A stretch of DNA of 64,000 nucleotides, from NCBI GenBank assembly GCA_035461765.1, contig DATHUY010000149.1, forward strand, positions 1-64,000. Direction: 5' to 3'. Source of the DNA: Longimicrobiales bacterium (lineage in GTDB: Bacteria; Gemmatimonadota; Gemmatimonadetes; Longimicrobiales; RSA9). Below, piece by piece: positions 8,093 through 17,832 of this stretch; within the stretch, counting starts at the first letter, position 1; the number at the start of each line of letters is the position of its first letter. The notes under the pieces are model-generated. The model worked only from the letters and a program-made list of their open reading frames with translations, did no database searches and was not told the origin of the DNA. The translations under genes and the position numbers were made by a program.

Positions 8093-9949
8093 ATGAGCTC
8101 TGCCATTATCGACAGCGCGCTGATCGAACGGACCCTGCGACGGTTCCGCATGGATGCGCACGTGCGCGAGCGGCTGCCGGACGGCGGAGTGCTGAACCTC
8201 GATCGCAAGCTGCCCTACCTGTTCGTCTATCGCCAGCCCCCGGATCGCGAGGACCCCGGCACGCACCGCCTGGTGCTGGGCGAGGCGTCGTATCTGGTCG
8301 CGCTGGGCGCAGCCGTGGACGAGACGCATGACGTCGTAGCCGCCCTGGCGACCGCCGCTACGCGCGAGCTCGATTCGTTCATGATCCTGGAGCTGTGGGC
8401 CGGTGCTGCGGACAGCACGGAGTTCGTCGTGCACGCCCCGACAGGCGCAGCAGCCGCGACCGTCGACGTTTTGTGTCGCGGCCTGCGCGAAATGACGGAT
8501 CCCGATGTCCGGACGACAGTACGCGTACGACAGACCGACGCACGACATCCGCCGGACCTCGACTCGCTACTCACCACGCAGGAGTGCTGGGACATCGGCT
8601 GTCTCCTCGTCGGCCTCGAGGTCCCTCCGATATTCCGCGACGCCGAGACGGGCACCGTGTATCCGGTGTTCCTGCGCCGGCTGCGTCAGCTGCTCTCGGG
8701 CGTGCTGCGCCAGGCCGCATTCGACTTTGCGCGCGTACAGACGAGCGCCGGCTTCGAGAGCTACCGCGCGGTCGGCCCGCGCCGGTTCGGCCGCGAGGTG
8801 GCCGACGCGGACCGGGCCCTCGCCGAGATCGAGTCCTCCTACCAGCTCCTGCTCCTCGTGTCGCCCGTCAACATCGGCGAAGCGTGGGCGGCATTCCGCG
8901 ACAGCCAGTTCAGCCGCGAGCCCCAGTTCCGCTACCGGCTTCTCCCGGTCGATCCCGACTCGCTCAAGCGGCAGCTGTTCAACGTCGACCTCGAGCCCGT
9001 TGCGGACCCGGCGATGGCTTTCCTGCTGCGTGACAAGCGCGACGAGCTCGACCGCCAGATCACGCTCATCGCCGAGCGCAACACGGAGGGCTTCCGGTTC
9101 GCGAGCATGCGCCTGTATGGCGCGGTCGATGACATGCTGCTGAATGTCGCGCGCGATGTGCTCGGAGACGTAGCGCCGCCGGTGCGCAGGGGCGCAAAGA
9201 CGTACGTATCGGCACAGGAATTCGCTGCGGCTGCGCGCACGGAGCTCGAGTACTACCGTGCGACGTATCCCGATCTGGCCGCCGAAGTACAGATCCGCCC
9301 CGACCTGGTCGGACTCATGGTCTCACGGGGTAACCTGCTGATTGGCGAAGCGCTTGCGCTGCGACCGGAGCGTGCGCTGCCGCTGCTGCACCACGAGGTC
9401 GGCACACACGTGCTCACGTATTACAACGGGCGGGCGCAGCCGCTGCGGCAGCTGTACAACGGCCTGGCGGGATACGACGAGCTGCAGGAGGGCCTCGCGG
9501 TGCTCGCCGAGTACCTCGCCAATGGCCTCGACGCGTCGCGCATGCGCGTGCTCGCGGCCCGCGTCGTGGCCGCCCATTCGGTGGAGCAGGGCGCCGGGTT
9601 CATCGATACGTTCCGCATCCTCACACAGGATCACGGTGTTCCTGCCGGCACTGCGTTCGACGTGACCGAGCGCGTTCATGCCAGCGGCGGCTTCACGCGC
9701 GATCTCATCTATCTGCGCGGGCTGCTCCGCCTCGTGGAGTACATCCGCGCCGGCGGCGCCATCGAGCCGCTGTATGTCGGCAAGATTGCAGCGAAGCACG
9801 TCCCGATCATCGAGGAGCTGCGCGCACGGGACTACCTCCAGGCGCCCGCACTGCTGCCGCGCCTGTTCGAGCAGCCGGACACGGCGCACCGTCTGGATGC
9901 GCTGCGTGATGGACTCACCCTGACACAGATGATCAGCGACAGCGAATGA
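8093..9949 (+). CDS. DUF1704/QEGLA-motif zincin-like carboxypeptidase homologue
   Basis: This protein has 618 residues from ATG 8093, chosen because AGGA stands 5 bases upstream; ATG 8057 is possible and would add 12 residues. It belongs to the family annotated as flavohemoglobin expression-modulating QEGLA motif protein (Pfam DUF1704). The metal site is visible: LLHHEVGTHVLTYYNG with HExxxH at 434-439, and YDELQEGLAVLAEY with QEGLA at 465-469, whose Glu466 is the likely third ligand. The eukaryotic MATCAP/TMCP enzymes, which trim the C-terminal tails of tubulin, share this fold and HExxxH arrangement. A carboxypeptidase acting on a C-terminal residue is therefore a reasonable prediction here. 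There is no signal peptide, so it is cytoplasmic. Its stop overlaps the start of the ATP-grasp gene (ATGA), which implies translational coupling. Its natural substrate in bacteria is not known to me. Confidence 0.88.
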   Translation: MSSAIIDSALIERTLRRFRMDAHVRERLPDGGVLNLDRKLPYLFVYRQPPDREDPGTHRLVLGEASYLVALGAAVDETHDVVAALATAATRELDSFMILELWAGAADSTEFVVHAPTGAAAATVDVLCRGLREMTDPDVRTTVRVRQTDARHPPDLDSLLTTQECWDIGCLLVGLEVPPIFRDAETGTVYPVFLRRLRQLLSGVLRQAAFDFARVQTSAGFESYRAVGPRRFGREVADADRALAEIESSYQLLLLVSPVNIGEAWAAFRDSQFSREPQFRYRLLPVDPDSLKRQLFNVDLEPVADPAMAFLLRDKRDELDRQITLIAERNTEGFRFASMRLYGAVDDMLLNVARDVLGDVAPPVRRGAKTYVSAQEFAAAARTELEYYRATYPDLAAEVQIRPDLVGLMVSRGNLLIGEALALRPERALPLLHHEVGTHVLTYYNGRAQPLRQLYNGLAGYDELQEGLAVLAEYLANGLDASRMRVLAARVVAAHSVEQGAGFIDTFRILTQDHGVPAGTAFDVTERVHASGGFTRDLIYLRGLLRLVEYIRAGGAIEPLYVGKIAAKHVPIIEELRARDYLQAPALLPRLFEQPDTAHRLDALRDGLTLTQMISDSE

Positions 9950-10989
9950 GAATAACCTTTCTGGTGAACGACGTGGCGACAGAGGTACCTCCCGCCACCA
10001 CGACCATTCTGTGTCATGCGGCGGCGAAGCTCGGCCACACCGTGCACGTGATCGGAATCGACCAGCTCACGTATCTCGAGGACGGCCGCGTCGGCGGGCT
10101 GGCGCACGTTGCTCCGGCGAACGCACGCACCAAGGAGAGCTTCCTCGCCGCGCTCCAGGCGAAGGACGCACCGCGCGAGCGGATCACGACCGATGACATG
10201 GACGTGTTCTGGCTGCGGTACAATCCGTCGGAGGAAGTGGAGAACGACCGCGCGTGGGCCCAGCAGGCGGGCGTGCTCTTCGGCCGCCTGGCCATGGCAC
10301 GCGGCGTCATCGTGCTCAACCATCCCGATACGCTCGCCTATGCCATCGACAAGCTGTACTTCCAGCATTTCCCGGAATCGGTCAGGCCCCGGACGATCGT
10401 CACGCGGGAGATTGAGGAGATCCGCCGGTTCCACGAGGACTGCGGGCGCAAAATCGTCATGAAACCGCTGAACGGATATGGCGGCGCCGATGTGTTCCTG
10501 GTCGAGAAGGACCTGACGAACCTGAAGCAGATGGTGGAGACGATCCAGCGAGGCGGCTACATCATGGCGCAGGAGTTCCTCCCTGGCGACCGTTCCGACA
10601 CGCGTTTCTTCCTGGTCAACGGCGAGCCGCTGATGGTCGACGGCAAGTATGCGGCCCTCAGGCGTGTGGCGCAGGGCGAGGACTTCCGATCGAACATGAC
10701 GGCGGGCGGCAAGGGCAGTCGCGGTCGCGTGACGGACCGGATGCTGGAGCTGGCAGCGATCGTGGGGCCGAAGCTGAAGCGCGACGGGATCTTCTTCGCC
10801 GGCCTGGACATCGTCGCAGACCGCATCGTGGAGATCAACTGCATCAGCACGGGCGGCCTGAACATCGCCGGGCGGCTGCACAAGGTGGACTTCGCGCCGC
10901 CTGTGATCGAGATGGTCGAGCGGAAGGTGCAGATCCATCGGGAGTACGGCGGCCATATCAGCAACATCGAGCTGGCGACCATGGGGTGA
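9946..10989 (+). CDS. ATP-grasp ligase, glutathione synthetase/RimK-like
   Basis: The 347-residue cytoplasmic protein has the GshB architecture: an N-terminal pre-ATP-grasp domain (MRITFLVNDVATE) and then the ATP-grasp fold. Visible elements are IVMKPLNGYGGADVFLVEKD (Lys and Gly-rich loop binding ATP phosphates, about 168-187), YIMAQEFLPGDRSDTRFFLV, LRRVAQGEDFRSNMTAGG, and the Mg-binding EINCISTGGLNIAG near 298-311. These match GshB closely in layout. No GshA gene is present, and the 4-nt overlap is with the QEGLA zincin. I therefore favour a dedicated amino-acid-to-peptide (or C-terminal) ligase rather than housekeeping glutathione synthesis, though true GshB activity cannot be excluded. A strong terminator follows, so the pair is a closed two-gene operon. 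Confidence 0.85.
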   Translation: MRITFLVNDVATEVPPATTTILCHAAAKLGHTVHVIGIDQLTYLEDGRVGGLAHVAPANARTKESFLAALQAKDAPRERITTDDMDVFWLRYNPSEEVENDRAWAQQAGVLFGRLAMARGVIVLNHPDTLAYAIDKLYFQHFPESVRPRTIVTREIEEIRRFHEDCGRKIVMKPLNGYGGADVFLVEKDLTNLKQMVETIQRGGYIMAQEFLPGDRSDTRFFLVNGEPLMVDGKYAALRRVAQGEDFRSNMTAGGKGSRGRVTDRMLELAAIVGPKLKRDGIFFAGLDIVADRIVEINCISTGGLNIAGRLHKVDFAPPVIEMVERKVQIHREYGGHISNIELATMG

Positions 10990-11014: not shown

Positions 11015-11040
11015 AGGGCGGGCGCTCCGGCCCGCCCTTT
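11015..11040 (+). terminator. Rho-independent terminator of the zincin/ATP-grasp operon
   Basis: A perfect 9-bp stem (11015-11023 with 11030-11038) and 6-nt loop are followed by TTTC. It separates the pair from speA. Confidence 0.8.
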
Positions 11041-13801: not shown

Positions 13802-13886
13802 CACCCTTCAGGCCTCCCGCCTGTGACAGGCTCCGGACGGGGCAAGGAACGTGCATCGCTCCGCGTATCAGGGAGGTAATGCGCGG

Positions 13887-15785
13887 ATGCAGAGACAGCT
13901 GGGGCGGCGCCTGCCGTTCGGTGCCGAGCCGTCGCACGACGGCGTTCATTTTCGGGTATGGGCACCAAGACACACACGTCTGCACGTGGTCCTCGAGGAC
14001 GAGCGCGGCGGCGGCAGTGAGCACGAGCTGACGCTGGACGAGGACGGGTGCTTCAGCGGCCGGGTGGACGGAGCGGGTGCGGGAACACGGTATCGCTACC
14101 GCCCCGCGGACGGCCGGCTGCTGCCGGACCCGGCATCCCGCAGTCAGCCCGACGGACCGCATGGCTCTTCCGAAATCGTTGACCCGGATGCGTTTGCGTG
14201 GACGGACACCGGCTGGCGCGGCCCGGCCGCGGAGCGGCACGTCGTCTACGAGATGCACATCGGCACATACACGCACGAGGGCACATGGGCGGCTGCGTCC
14301 AGGTACCTCGAGGAAATAGCGGCACTGGGCGTCACCATCGTCGAGCTCATGCCGGTCAACGAGTTCCCGGGGCGCTTCAACTGGGGATACGACGGTGTCG
14401 CACCGTTCGCACCCGCGCACGTCTACGGCACCCCCGATGACATGCGTCGCTTTGTGGATGAGGCCCACGCCAGAGGCCTGGCCGTGGTGCTCGACGTCGT
14501 CTACAACCACATGGGACCGGACGGCTGCTACTTCCAGGAGTTCGCAGAAGAATACTTCTCGACACGGCACACGACGGACTGGGGCGCGGCACTGAACTTC
14601 GACGGCCCCGGTTCCCATCACGTGCGGGAGTTCTTTCTTGCCAACGCCGAATACTGGATCCGCGAGTTCCACCTGGACGGCCTGCGCATCGATGCTACGC
14701 AGAACATCTACGACGACGGGCCTCACCACATCCTGACGGAAGTCGTCGCCCGTGCGCGGGCCGCCGCTCCGGACCGTCGCGTCTGGATCGTTGCGGAGAA
14801 CGAGCCTCAGGACGTGCGCACCGTGCTCCGTCCGGACGACGGGGGACACGGCATGGATGCGGTGTGGAACGATGATTTCCATCATACCGCCATGGTCGCG
14901 CTGACCGGCAGCACGGAAGCGTACTACACGGACTATCGCGGCTCGCCGCAGGAACTCATCTCGTGCGCGCGCCACGGATTCCTGTATCAGGGACAGTTCT
15001 ACTCGTGGCAGGGCAAGCGGCGCGGCACGCCGACGCGCAGGGTGGCGGCACGCTCGTTCGTGAACTTCATCCAGAACCACGATCAGATCGCGAACTCCGC
15101 TGACGGCAGGAGGCTGCACGAGGCCACAGGCGCGGCCGAGCTGCGCGCCATGACCGCTCTGCTGCTGCTCATGCCCGGCACGGCCATGCTGTTTCAGGGA
15201 CAGGAATTCGCGGCGACGGCCCGCTTCCTCTTCTTCGCGGACCACAGGCCCGATCTGGCGAACGTCGTGCACCGCGGCCGCCGCGAGTTCCTGCGCCAGT
15301 TCCCCAGCACGGCGCTCGCTTCGGTACAGCAGCGGATCGATGACCCGGCGGATCCGGAGACGTTCGCGATGTCACGCCTCGATCATGGTGAGCGTGTCGA
15401 GAACGCGCACGTGCTCCGGCTGCATCACGACCTGATCGCGCTCTCACGCAGCGACAGCGTATTCGCGTCGCAGGATGGTACGCGCGTGGATGGTGCCGTG
15501 CTCGGCGCCGAGGCATTCGTGCTGCGCTATGCCGGTGAGGCGGACGACGACCGGCTGCTCGTGGTCAACCTGGGCGCGGATCTGCACCTCGAGGTGGTGC
15601 CCGAACCGCTGCTCGCGCCCACGAACGGCAGACGCTGGCACATGCTGCTGTCGACGGAGGATATCGGATACGGCGGCCGTGGCGCCGTTCATCCCGAGCT
15701 CGATGATGGCTGGCTGATCCCCGCGCGATCCGCTGCCGTGCTGGCGCCCGGCCACAGCAACAGAGAGGACGACACGAATGACTGA
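13887..15785 (+). CDS. treZ: Malto-oligosyltrehalose trehalohydrolase
   Basis: This GH13 enzyme releases trehalose from maltooligosyl-trehalose in the cytoplasm. ATG 13887 is chosen (632 residues) because GGGAGG lies 10 bases upstream and the protein then starts with the typical RRLPFGAEP; a GTG at 13851 is less likely. An N-terminal CBM48-like domain precedes the barrel. Catalytic residues are visible: nucleophile D269 in LDGLRIDATQNI, acid E304 in WIVAENEPQD, and D399 in FIQNHDQIANS. ALNFDGPGSHHVREF, NDDFHHTAMVALTG, YYTDYRGSPQEL and YSWQGKRRG are TreZ signatures that separate it from GlgB. Its 3' end overlaps the debranching enzyme gene by 8 nt. The usual partner TreY is absent from the window. 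Confidence 0.93.
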   Translation: MQRQLGRRLPFGAEPSHDGVHFRVWAPRHTRLHVVLEDERGGGSEHELTLDEDGCFSGRVDGAGAGTRYRYRPADGRLLPDPASRSQPDGPHGSSEIVDPDAFAWTDTGWRGPAAERHVVYEMHIGTYTHEGTWAAASRYLEEIAALGVTIVELMPVNEFPGRFNWGYDGVAPFAPAHVYGTPDDMRRFVDEAHARGLAVVLDVVYNHMGPDGCYFQEFAEEYFSTRHTTDWGAALNFDGPGSHHVREFFLANAEYWIREFHLDGLRIDATQNIYDDGPHHILTEVVARARAAAPDRRVWIVAENEPQDVRTVLRPDDGGHGMDAVWNDDFHHTAMVALTGSTEAYYTDYRGSPQELISCARHGFLYQGQFYSWQGKRRGTPTRRVAARSFVNFIQNHDQIANSADGRRLHEATGAAELRAMTALLLLMPGTAMLFQGQEFAATARFLFFADHRPDLANVVHRGRREFLRQFPSTALASVQQRIDDPADPETFAMSRLDHGERVENAHVLRLHHDLIALSRSDSVFASQDGTRVDGAVLGAEAFVLRYAGEADDDRLLVVNLGADLHLEVVPEPLLAPTNGRRWHMLLSTEDIGYGGRGAVHPELDDGWLIPARSAAVLAPGHSNREDDTND

Positions 15786-17832
15786 GCCGCTGCTGCGCGC
15801 ACCGCAATGGGAACCCGCAACGCCGGAGCCACTGCTCACGCGCGAATGGCTCGTGACGAACGGCCTGGGCGGCTATGCGTCGGGCACCGTCGCGGGGGCG
15901 GTCACGCGGCGCTATCACGGCCTGCTCGTCGCCGCACTGCCCGCGCCGCTCGGCCGCACTGTCATGCTCAACCATCTGCTCGAGGAGCTGCGACTGCCCG
16001 GCGGACGCCGTGTCGCGCTCGGCGGTACCGAAAACGCCGAGGGCCGGGATGTGCCAGGGGCGTCGTTCTTCGCGGACTTTCACCTGGACACCGGCCTGCC
16101 CGTATGGCGCTACCAGGTGGACGGGTTCCTGGTCGAGAAGCGGATCCTGATGCCGCACTTCCAGAACACCGTAGTCGTGACATACCGCATGCTCGAGGGC
16201 GCCGCTCCCCTGCGCCTGCGCCTGCGGCCGTCCGTGCACTTTCGATCCTATGAGGCTGCGGTGGACTCACCGCTGCAGGAGCCCTATCGGTTGATCGCGT
16301 CGCGGGAGCAGTTCGAGCTTCATGCGTGCTCGGCCGATCTGCCGCCGCTTCGGATCATGCAGCACGGCGGGCAGAACCCTGCGCTCGTCGTGAAGTCGCA
16401 GCGTCATTCGAGTATCGCATATCGCATCGAGCGCGATCGCGGCTACACCGCGGTCGGCGACCTGTGGAGTCCCGGCTACCTGAAGGCGGAGCTGACGCGG
16501 GATGAACCCGTTGCGCTCATCGCCTCGACGGAGGACTGGAGCACGATCACCGGTGCAGGGCTCGAGGACCTGTACGAGATCGAGAAGCTGCGTCGCAGCC
16601 GGCTCATCTCGCTCGCTCCGCCAGCCGCGCGGACGGGAGTGGCAGGCGAGCTCGTCCTCGCGGCCGATCAGTTCATCACGCAGCCCGCCGGCCGCGTCGC
16701 CGAGCAGGCACGCGCGCAGGCGGCCGGTCGCGAGCTGCGCACCGTCATCGCGGGCTACCACTGGTTCACCGACTGGGGGCGCGACACCATGATCTCGCTG
16801 GAAGGCCTTACGCTCAGCACGGGCCGTTTCCGTGAAGCCAGCGACATCCTGCGCACGTTCGCCCGCTACGTGCGCGACGGCCTGATCCCGAACATGTTTC
16901 CCGATCAGTCGACCGAGGGGCTGTACCATACCGCCGACGCGACTCTGTGGTTCTTCCATGCCGTTGAGCGATACATGCACCACACCGGTGATGCGACACT
17001 CATCGCTGACCTCCTGCCGACGTTCACGGGCATTGCCGATCGACATCTCGCCGGCACGCATTTCGGTATTGGCGTCGATCCCGGCGACGGTCTGCTGCGA
17101 CAGGGTGAAGAGGGCTACCAGCTGACATGGATGGATGCCAAGGTCGGTGACTGGGTCGTGACGCCGCGACGCGGGAAGGCCGTCGAGCTGAACGCGCTCT
17201 GGTACAATGCGCTGCGTCTGCTCGAGGGATGGTGCCGCGAGGCCGGCGATGAGACGCAGGCTCAGTCGCTCGCGCACCACGCCGAACGCGTCCATGAGTC
17301 CTTCAACCGCCGCTTCTGGTACGAGGAAGGGCAGTACCTCTATGACGTCGTCGACGGCGAGCAGGGTGATGACACGGCGTGTCGACCCAACCAGATATTC
17401 TCTGTGTCGCTGGATCATCCGGTGCTCGACAGCGAGCGCTGGAAAGCCGTGGTGGACACGGTCGAGGCGCGGCTGCTCACGCCCGTGGGGCTCCGTTCAC
17501 TCGCGCCGGATCACCCCGATTATCAGCCACGCTACTGGGGTGACCTGCACGCCCGCGACGCCGCGTACCATCAGGGAACGGTCTGGGGCTGGCTCATCGG
17601 GCCGTTCATTGATGCATGGCTGCGCTGCTACCCCGCGGAGCGCGCACGCGCCCGCGCCATGCTGAGCGGCCTGATCGACCACCTCGACGAGTTCGGGGTC
17701 GGCACCATAGCCGAGATCTTCGATGCTGAGGAGCCGTACGCACCGCGCGGCTGCATCGCGCAGGCCTGGTCGGTCGCCGAGGTGCTGCGCTGCTGGGGGC
17801 GGACCGAGGATGGCGCGCCGCCGAACGTATAG
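15778..17832 (+). CDS. Glycogen debranching enzyme, amylo-alpha-1,6-glucosidase (GH133)
   Basis: The 684-residue cytoplasmic protein matches the archaeal/bacterial GDE type. The N-terminal domain starts EWLVTNGLGGYASGTVAGAV and runs on through RRYHGLLVAALP to about residue 250. The C-terminal (alpha/alpha)6 GH133 domain follows, with the signature HWFTDWGRDTMISLEGL (328-344, D336 conserved), NMFPDQSTEGLYHTADATLW, QLTWMDAKVGDWVVTPRRGK and a late YWGDLHARDAAYHQGTVWGW. It hydrolyses alpha-1,6 branch glucose of glycogen limit dextrins. The overlap with treZ means co-translation; together they would convert branched glucan to linear chains, and TreZ would release trehalose if TreY is supplied elsewhere. 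The stop faces the convergent M50-like gene only 29 bases away, with no clear hairpin. Confidence 0.92.
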   Translation: MTEPLLRAPQWEPATPEPLLTREWLVTNGLGGYASGTVAGAVTRRYHGLLVAALPAPLGRTVMLNHLLEELRLPGGRRVALGGTENAEGRDVPGASFFADFHLDTGLPVWRYQVDGFLVEKRILMPHFQNTVVVTYRMLEGAAPLRLRLRPSVHFRSYEAAVDSPLQEPYRLIASREQFELHACSADLPPLRIMQHGGQNPALVVKSQRHSSIAYRIERDRGYTAVGDLWSPGYLKAELTRDEPVALIASTEDWSTITGAGLEDLYEIEKLRRSRLISLAPPAARTGVAGELVLAADQFITQPAGRVAEQARAQAAGRELRTVIAGYHWFTDWGRDTMISLEGLTLSTGRFREASDILRTFARYVRDGLIPNMFPDQSTEGLYHTADATLWFFHAVERYMHHTGDATLIADLLPTFTGIADRHLAGTHFGIGVDPGDGLLRQGEEGYQLTWMDAKVGDWVVTPRRGKAVELNALWYNALRLLEGWCREAGDETQAQSLAHHAERVHESFNRRFWYEEGQYLYDVVDGEQGDDTACRPNQIFSVSLDHPVLDSERWKAVVDTVEARLLTPVGLRSLAPDHPDYQPRYWGDLHARDAAYHQGTVWGWLIGPFIDAWLRCYPAERARARAMLSGLIDHLDEFGVGTIAEIFDAEEPYAPRGCIAQAWSVAEVLRCWGRTEDGAPPNV

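Follow-up and report, generated by a model that had tools for sequence, protein, structure and literature searches.

A conserved bacterial operon of a MATCAP-like zincin and a GshB-like ATP-grasp ligase: a possible amide-bond cycle with a suggested link to salinity

The operon and its products

What might a bacterium do with an operon that joins a relative of the eukaryotic tubulin-trimming enzymes to an ATP-grasp ligase? The question is raised by two genes in the window, i.e. the whole 64,000-nucleotide stretch of DNA analysed here. An earlier reading made from the sequence alone (hereafter the sequence-only reading) had described two genes overlapping by 4 nt, and the two open reading frames indeed share the ATGA at 9946-9949. 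The features relevant to the argument are the following.

8093-9949, + strand: long-type DUF1704/QEGLA protein (618 aa), a degenerate N-formylglutamate amidohydrolase (FGase)-like N-terminal domain followed by a MATCAP-type gluzincin
8150-8812, + strand: the degenerate FGase-like domain, about residues 20-240
8891-9886, + strand: MATCAP (PF08014) zincin domain, residues 267-598, from Pfam and fold matches
9392-9409, + strand: HExxxH motif (HEVGTH, residues 434-439) with metal ligands and the catalytic Glu435, equivalent to E281 of MATCAP1
9485-9499, + strand: QEGLA motif, residues 465-469, with E466 as the predicted third metal ligand (EEG in KIAA0895L)
9946-10989, + strand: GshB-like ATP-grasp ligase of the PRK12458 subfamily (347 aa), its start overlapping the zincin stop by 4 nt
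10348-10863, + strand: GSH-S_ATP (PF02955) ATP-grasp domain, residues 135-306, with every ATP/Mg residue of Escherichia coli GshB present
11015-11038, + strand: stable GC-rich 9-bp hairpin 3' of the operon, a possible terminator without a U-run

The zincin starts at the ATG at 8093, with AGGA 5 nt upstream; this start agrees with that of the homologous protein of the closest relative (the sister genome). Its PF08014 score is 281.8 bits against a gathering cut-off of 27, and it falls just below the cut-off of the NCBIfam QEGLA equivalog TIGR02421 (307.9 vs 338.65), a model that gives 445 bits for a short-type DUF1704 protein and 342 for a long-type protein from Calditrichota. The HExxxH and QEGLA motifs occur at the residues named in the sequence-only reading, and the zinc-binding and catalytic residues H434, E435, H439 and E466 are invariant in all 72 long-type proteins compared, matching E281 and the EEG ligand of MATCAP1 (PMC10499314). 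The proposed fold shared with MATCAP/TMCP is borne out by the AlphaFold2 model (pLDDT 94), for which human MATCAP (7z5g) is the top PDB match (Foldseek E 3e-9, TMt 0.67), followed by DUF885-type proteins and then M32 carboxypeptidases. By family and modelled fold, the zincin is thus a predicted metallocarboxypeptidase.

The identification of the second gene as a GshB-like ATP-grasp ligase likewise stands, with PF02955 and PRK12458 matches and a GshB fold in the model (pLDDT 94); the nearest structure is GshB itself (1gsa, TM 0.80), followed by ArgX/LysX and RimK. The best model is PRK12458, whose curated cut-off of 408 bits the window ligase misses (379 bits) and relatives in other phyla exceed. 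The two GshB equivalog models score far below their cut-offs (189.7 vs 272 and 176.8 vs 299), and the RimK-family model TIGR00768 also stays below (67.8 vs 143.4). All the E. coli GshB residues K125, K160, D208, R210, R225, R233, N235, D273, E281 and N283 are retained, the ATP and metal residues being invariant across 74 ligases. The acceptor loop of these ligases reads SPGG (S-T-G-G in the window) where GshB has SPTC, and RSN where GshB has RGN.

The nearest relatives of the window are from Gemmatimonadota. Compared with the sister genome, the zincin shows 83% identity at a dN/dS of about 0.12 and the ligase 87% at about 0.08 (dS near 0.95); both are under purifying selection. A phage origin was considered and rejected, as no match was found in phages. 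The gene upstream of the operon is divergent, and no sigma-70 promoter for the operon was found in a promoter scan. As to the "strong terminator" of the sequence-only reading, a stable hairpin of nine GC-rich base pairs is present, but it lacks a U-run and was for that reason not called by the terminator scan; downstream of it lies speA, encoding arginine decarboxylase. Just downstream in the window (13851-17832), a TreZ-like trehalohydrolase and an archaeal-type glycogen debranching enzyme are encoded by an overlapping two-gene operon.

The ligase accompanies long-type DUF1704 proteins

To see how firm the pairing is, we surveyed 84,980 species and retained the best 80 loci by similarity to the window zincin. 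These come from about ten phyla, including Bacteroidota, Planctomycetota, Verrucomicrobiota, Acidobacteriota and Calditrichota, with further representatives from Poribacteria, Campylobacterota, Pseudomonadota, Desulfobacterota, Gemmatimonadota and metagenome-assembled genomes (MAGs) labelled actinobacterial. A ligase gene adjoins the zincin gene in all of the best 80 loci, on the same strand in 78, downstream in 76 and with a gap of at most 60 nt in 73. The sequence-only reading had likewise taken QEGLA and RimK-related genes to be neighbours in other bacteria.

Since these loci were selected by their likeness to the window protein, two phylum samples provide a less biased test. Among 150 genomes of Gemmatimonadota, PF08014 occurs in six, each with a strong PRK12458 gene immediately adjacent, and no ligase score exceeds 193 bits in the genomes of this sample that lack PF08014. 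In 299 genomes of Pseudomonadota, PF08014 occurs in 29, falling into two types. About 20 loci (L109-L127 and L138) encode short DUF1704 proteins of approximately 430-470 aa and lack a ligase gene within 1.5 kb, so the notion of a ligase partner for every DUF1704 protein was rejected, whereas long or fused proteins nearly always have one. Viewed from the other side, nine of the ten PRK12458 genes in the sample adjoin PF08014, and the tenth begins 48 bases from a contig end. The association is thus a property of the long DUF1704 subfamily. The neighbourhood survey proposed in the sequence-only reading supports its pairing for the long type but not for the short one, and the adjacency is so nearly obligatory that the lack of genomic association under which that reading was to be given up is not what we find for long-type proteins. 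Such adjacency across many phyla is strong support for a functional link of the two enzymes. Another short, divergent QEGLA protein, also without a ligase, is encoded on a plasmid of Legionella adelaidensis (L020, 7725-9014) beside murI and downstream of dapA.

A third enzyme and a degenerate copy of it

Exactly one amidohydrolase gene is present in 71 of the best 80 loci, and the two kinds never occur together: 40 loci have FGase (PF05013), usually upstream, and 31, all from Bacteroidota, have an AspA/AstE-like deacylase (PF24827). Neither was found in the remaining nine, some of which are cut by contig ends. Both assignments are to the family only, the proteins scoring below NCBIfam equivalog cut-offs or having no NCBIfam match. 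The trio of FGase, QEGLA protein and "glutathione synthetase" is annotated on rhizobial and related plasmids. The two-enzyme model of the sequence-only reading, though right about the pairing, is thus incomplete, as most operons include a third enzyme.

The window is one of the exceptions. A profile search found no FGase gene anywhere in the window genome or in a second genome that appears to be identical to the sister genome, and a search of the window found no AspA gene. Since the other four of the six Gemmatimonadota operons have FGase, the lineage of the window, i.e. its genus, has probably lost this gene while keeping the ligase and the trimming enzyme, judging from gene content.

A trace of the same family resides in the zincin itself. 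The N-terminal region of about 230 residues matches FGase in hhalign (96.5%, E 9e-10; 0.3% for the C-terminal part as a control), and weak PDB matches of the zincin model include FGase and aspartoacylase structures. The domain is degenerate: the stretch with the first FGase motifs is missing or unaligned, and the histidine of the DxHS motif is Trp in the window protein and W, Y or F in 67 of 72 relatives, with His never among the listed residues. In Photobacterium, by comparison, an FGase domain with intact FGase residues is fused to MATCAP in a single protein, with the ligase gene upstream, and this fusion aligns to two tandem genes in rhizobia.

Response to salinity and ion-transport neighbours

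Published RNA-seq data from Photobacterium damselae offer a glimpse of the physiology. At 1% compared to 3% NaCl, the QEGLA gene A0J47_RS17025 is up 27.5-fold and the "GshB" gene A0J47_RS17020 up 38.4-fold, with RimK strongly induced together with the pair (PMC10308900). The two locus tags are neighbouring, and this arrangement, as annotated, fits that of two other Photobacterium strains. The low-salinity "GshB" is thus probably the partner ligase of the QEGLA protein rather than the canonical GshB as which it was discussed (cf. L021, 6314-9305, in Photobacterium sp. DA100).

A gene for CorA lies within about 6 kb of five of 30 operons (two of the five from related Poribacteria), compared to about 0.14 expected by our own estimate assuming 1.5 copies per genome, and genes for SLC12 cotransporters, MscS channels and a K+ channel are present at these loci as well. 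Together with the induction at low salinity, these neighbours suggest that the operon serves osmotic or ionic adaptation, a physiology we infer. Clusters with CorA, SLC12, MscS and K+ channel genes were seen in Poribacteria, Planctomycetota and Calditrichota (L083, L095, L035, L064, L039 and L058), and close to the operon of another locus, one with K+ transport genes, a tandem pair of D-Ala-D-Ala-ligase-like ATP-grasp genes was noticed by eye (L042, 17264-19305).

Comparison with known systems

The eukaryotic tubulin carboxypeptidases MATCAP1/TMCP1 (KIAA0895L) and TMCP2 share with the bacterial zincin the family (PF08014), the fold, the HExxxH motif and the Glu in (E/Q)EG. Sequence identity is only about 18%, however, and the bacterial side has no tubulin and adds the degenerate FGase domain and the operon ligase. 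The ligase resembles GshB in fold, ATP/Mg residues and closest structure, but it belongs to the distinct PRK12458 subfamily, has a different acceptor loop and occurs in genomes without a recognised GshA. RimK/RimB is a bacterial operon of similar logic, with an ATP-grasp glutamate ligase and a protease removing what the ligase adds, yet RimB is of an unrelated, retropepsin-like aspartic fold, the window ligase is nearer to GshB, and no FGase or AspA third member is described for RimK/RimB in the literature compared. Another operon-borne peptidase is found in the asnO-ngg-peptidase operon for the osmolyte NAGGN, a non-ribosomal N-acyl dipeptide under osmotic control (PMC8070244); it relies on other enzyme families and is induced by high, not low, osmolarity.

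A further parallel is the vertebrate NAAG cycle, consisting of the ligases RIMKLA/B, glutamate carboxypeptidase II and aspartoacylase (PMC3872778). As in the bacterial set, an ATP-grasp ligase, a metallocarboxypeptidase and an aspartoacylase-type deacylase would act on one acidic acyl-peptide, although the carboxypeptidase of the NAAG cycle has another fold and the cycle has no operon.

Possible role of the operon

The enzyme set of the operon matches the NAAG cycle one for one, which favours a substrate that is small, acidic and N-acylated, either an amino acid or a peptide. Known relatives of the ligase, the carboxypeptidase and the amidohydrolase favour acidic substrates, which points the same way, with modest confidence. 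Quite possibly, then, and this is the reading we tentatively prefer, the operon is a system for making and unmaking an amide bond on such a compound for osmotic or ionic purposes. The ATP-grasp ligase would activate a carboxylate as an acyl phosphate and join it to an amino acid, the zincin would remove a C-terminal residue from the ligase product or from a precursor, and in most carriers the third enzyme (FGase or AspA/AstE) would hydrolyse an amide of the N-acyl-Glu/Asp type. In the genus of the window, which would retain just the ligase and the trimming enzyme after losing FGase, the complete cycle may be dispensable. We infer the substrate, direction and physiology of this cycle; that the ligase and the hydrolase are induced together at low salt does not imply that they oppose each other. 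The fuller version, a phylum-spanning cycle in which ligase, MATCAP-type carboxypeptidase and deacylase make and remove an acidic acyl-peptide as salinity falls, with FGase and AspA interchangeable and a dead FGase domain inside the carboxypeptidase, is doubtful in its entirety.

Several other roles have to be weighed. The two to three tandem ligases at nine of the best 80 loci fit a longer peptide better than a single dipeptide and leave room for a biosynthetic cassette, in which ligases build a peptide metabolite that would then be matured, through trimming or removal of protecting groups, by the zincin and FGase/AspA instead of being undone by them. A Verrucomicrobia locus inspected by eye (L028, 3385-20415), with three zincin-ligase pairs, FGase, ATP-grasp-like genes and a PLP decarboxylase, is possibly a peptide biosynthesis cluster of this kind. 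Most loci have a single ligase, however, and no transporter or tailoring genes are common to them, making a cassette somewhat unlikely as the general role. The sequence-only reading had proposed a writer/eraser pair, and the functional pairing holds, but the protein tail is just one of the possible targets and the third enzyme had been missed. Addition of C-terminal residues by the ligase and their removal by the zincin would parallel TTL and MATCAP on tubulin or RimK/RimB on S6: RpsF of Pseudomonas gains Glu through RimK and loses it through RimB (PMC11957791; PMC12239564), the closest solved relative of the zincin trims tubulin tails (PMC10499314), and RimK is co-induced with the pair in P. 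damselae. We nevertheless consider a protein target unlikely, because the closest match of the ligase is GshB, which acts on small molecules, the substrates of FGase and AspA are N-acyl amino acids and not protein tails, and no gene for a target protein is consistently nearby at the surveyed loci.

Two further explanations fare worse. The database name "flavohemoglobin expression-modulating" would make the zincin mainly regulatory, which is very improbable: the NCBI QEGLA model behind the name fits the short type well, which lacks the ligase partner, and the metal and catalytic residues are all invariant in the long type. Ordinary glutathione synthesis by the ligase, with a functionally unrelated zincin, could be read from the annotation "glutathione synthetase" and the conserved GshB ATP and metal residues. 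However, none of the 17 carriers tested has E. coli-type GshA (PF04262), and eight of 30 are without GCS2 as well. MAGs account for some of these carriers, yet there are named strains among them, too, at least Salegentibacter echinorum and Zobellia amurskyensis, both of which were covered by the PF04262 and the GCS2 test. The window genome itself lacks PF04262 and has three GCS2-family genes. With so many carriers devoid of a recognised GshA, glutathione synthesis is unlikely as the common role, and given also the weak equivalog scores, the different acceptor loop and the near-obligatory zincin neighbour, we reject it as scarcely tenable.

Novelty and implications

Each of the gene families is already known, and the operon belongs to a known kind, that of ATP-grasp amidoligases with peptidases. 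The open literature searched holds almost nothing on QEGLA/DUF1704 beyond incidental mention, although an earlier mention of the operon may exist; no earlier work seems to combine the FGase/AspA alternation with the degenerate domain in the zincin, the split into long and short types and the link to low salinity. A practical consequence concerns annotation, as PRK12458-type ligases are routinely labelled glutathione synthetase. Identification of the substrate would add a metabolite or a protein modification to those known from bacteria, provide a function for bacterial DUF1704 proteins and bear on a possible origin of the tubulin-tail carboxypeptidases; should the amide-cycle reading be true, an enzyme that trims a metabolite in bacteria would count the tubulin detyrosinases of eukaryotes among its relatives. 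Cultured hosts that carry the operon and are easy to handle in the laboratory include Sinorhizobium meliloti (on pSymB), Pontibacter and Zobellia.
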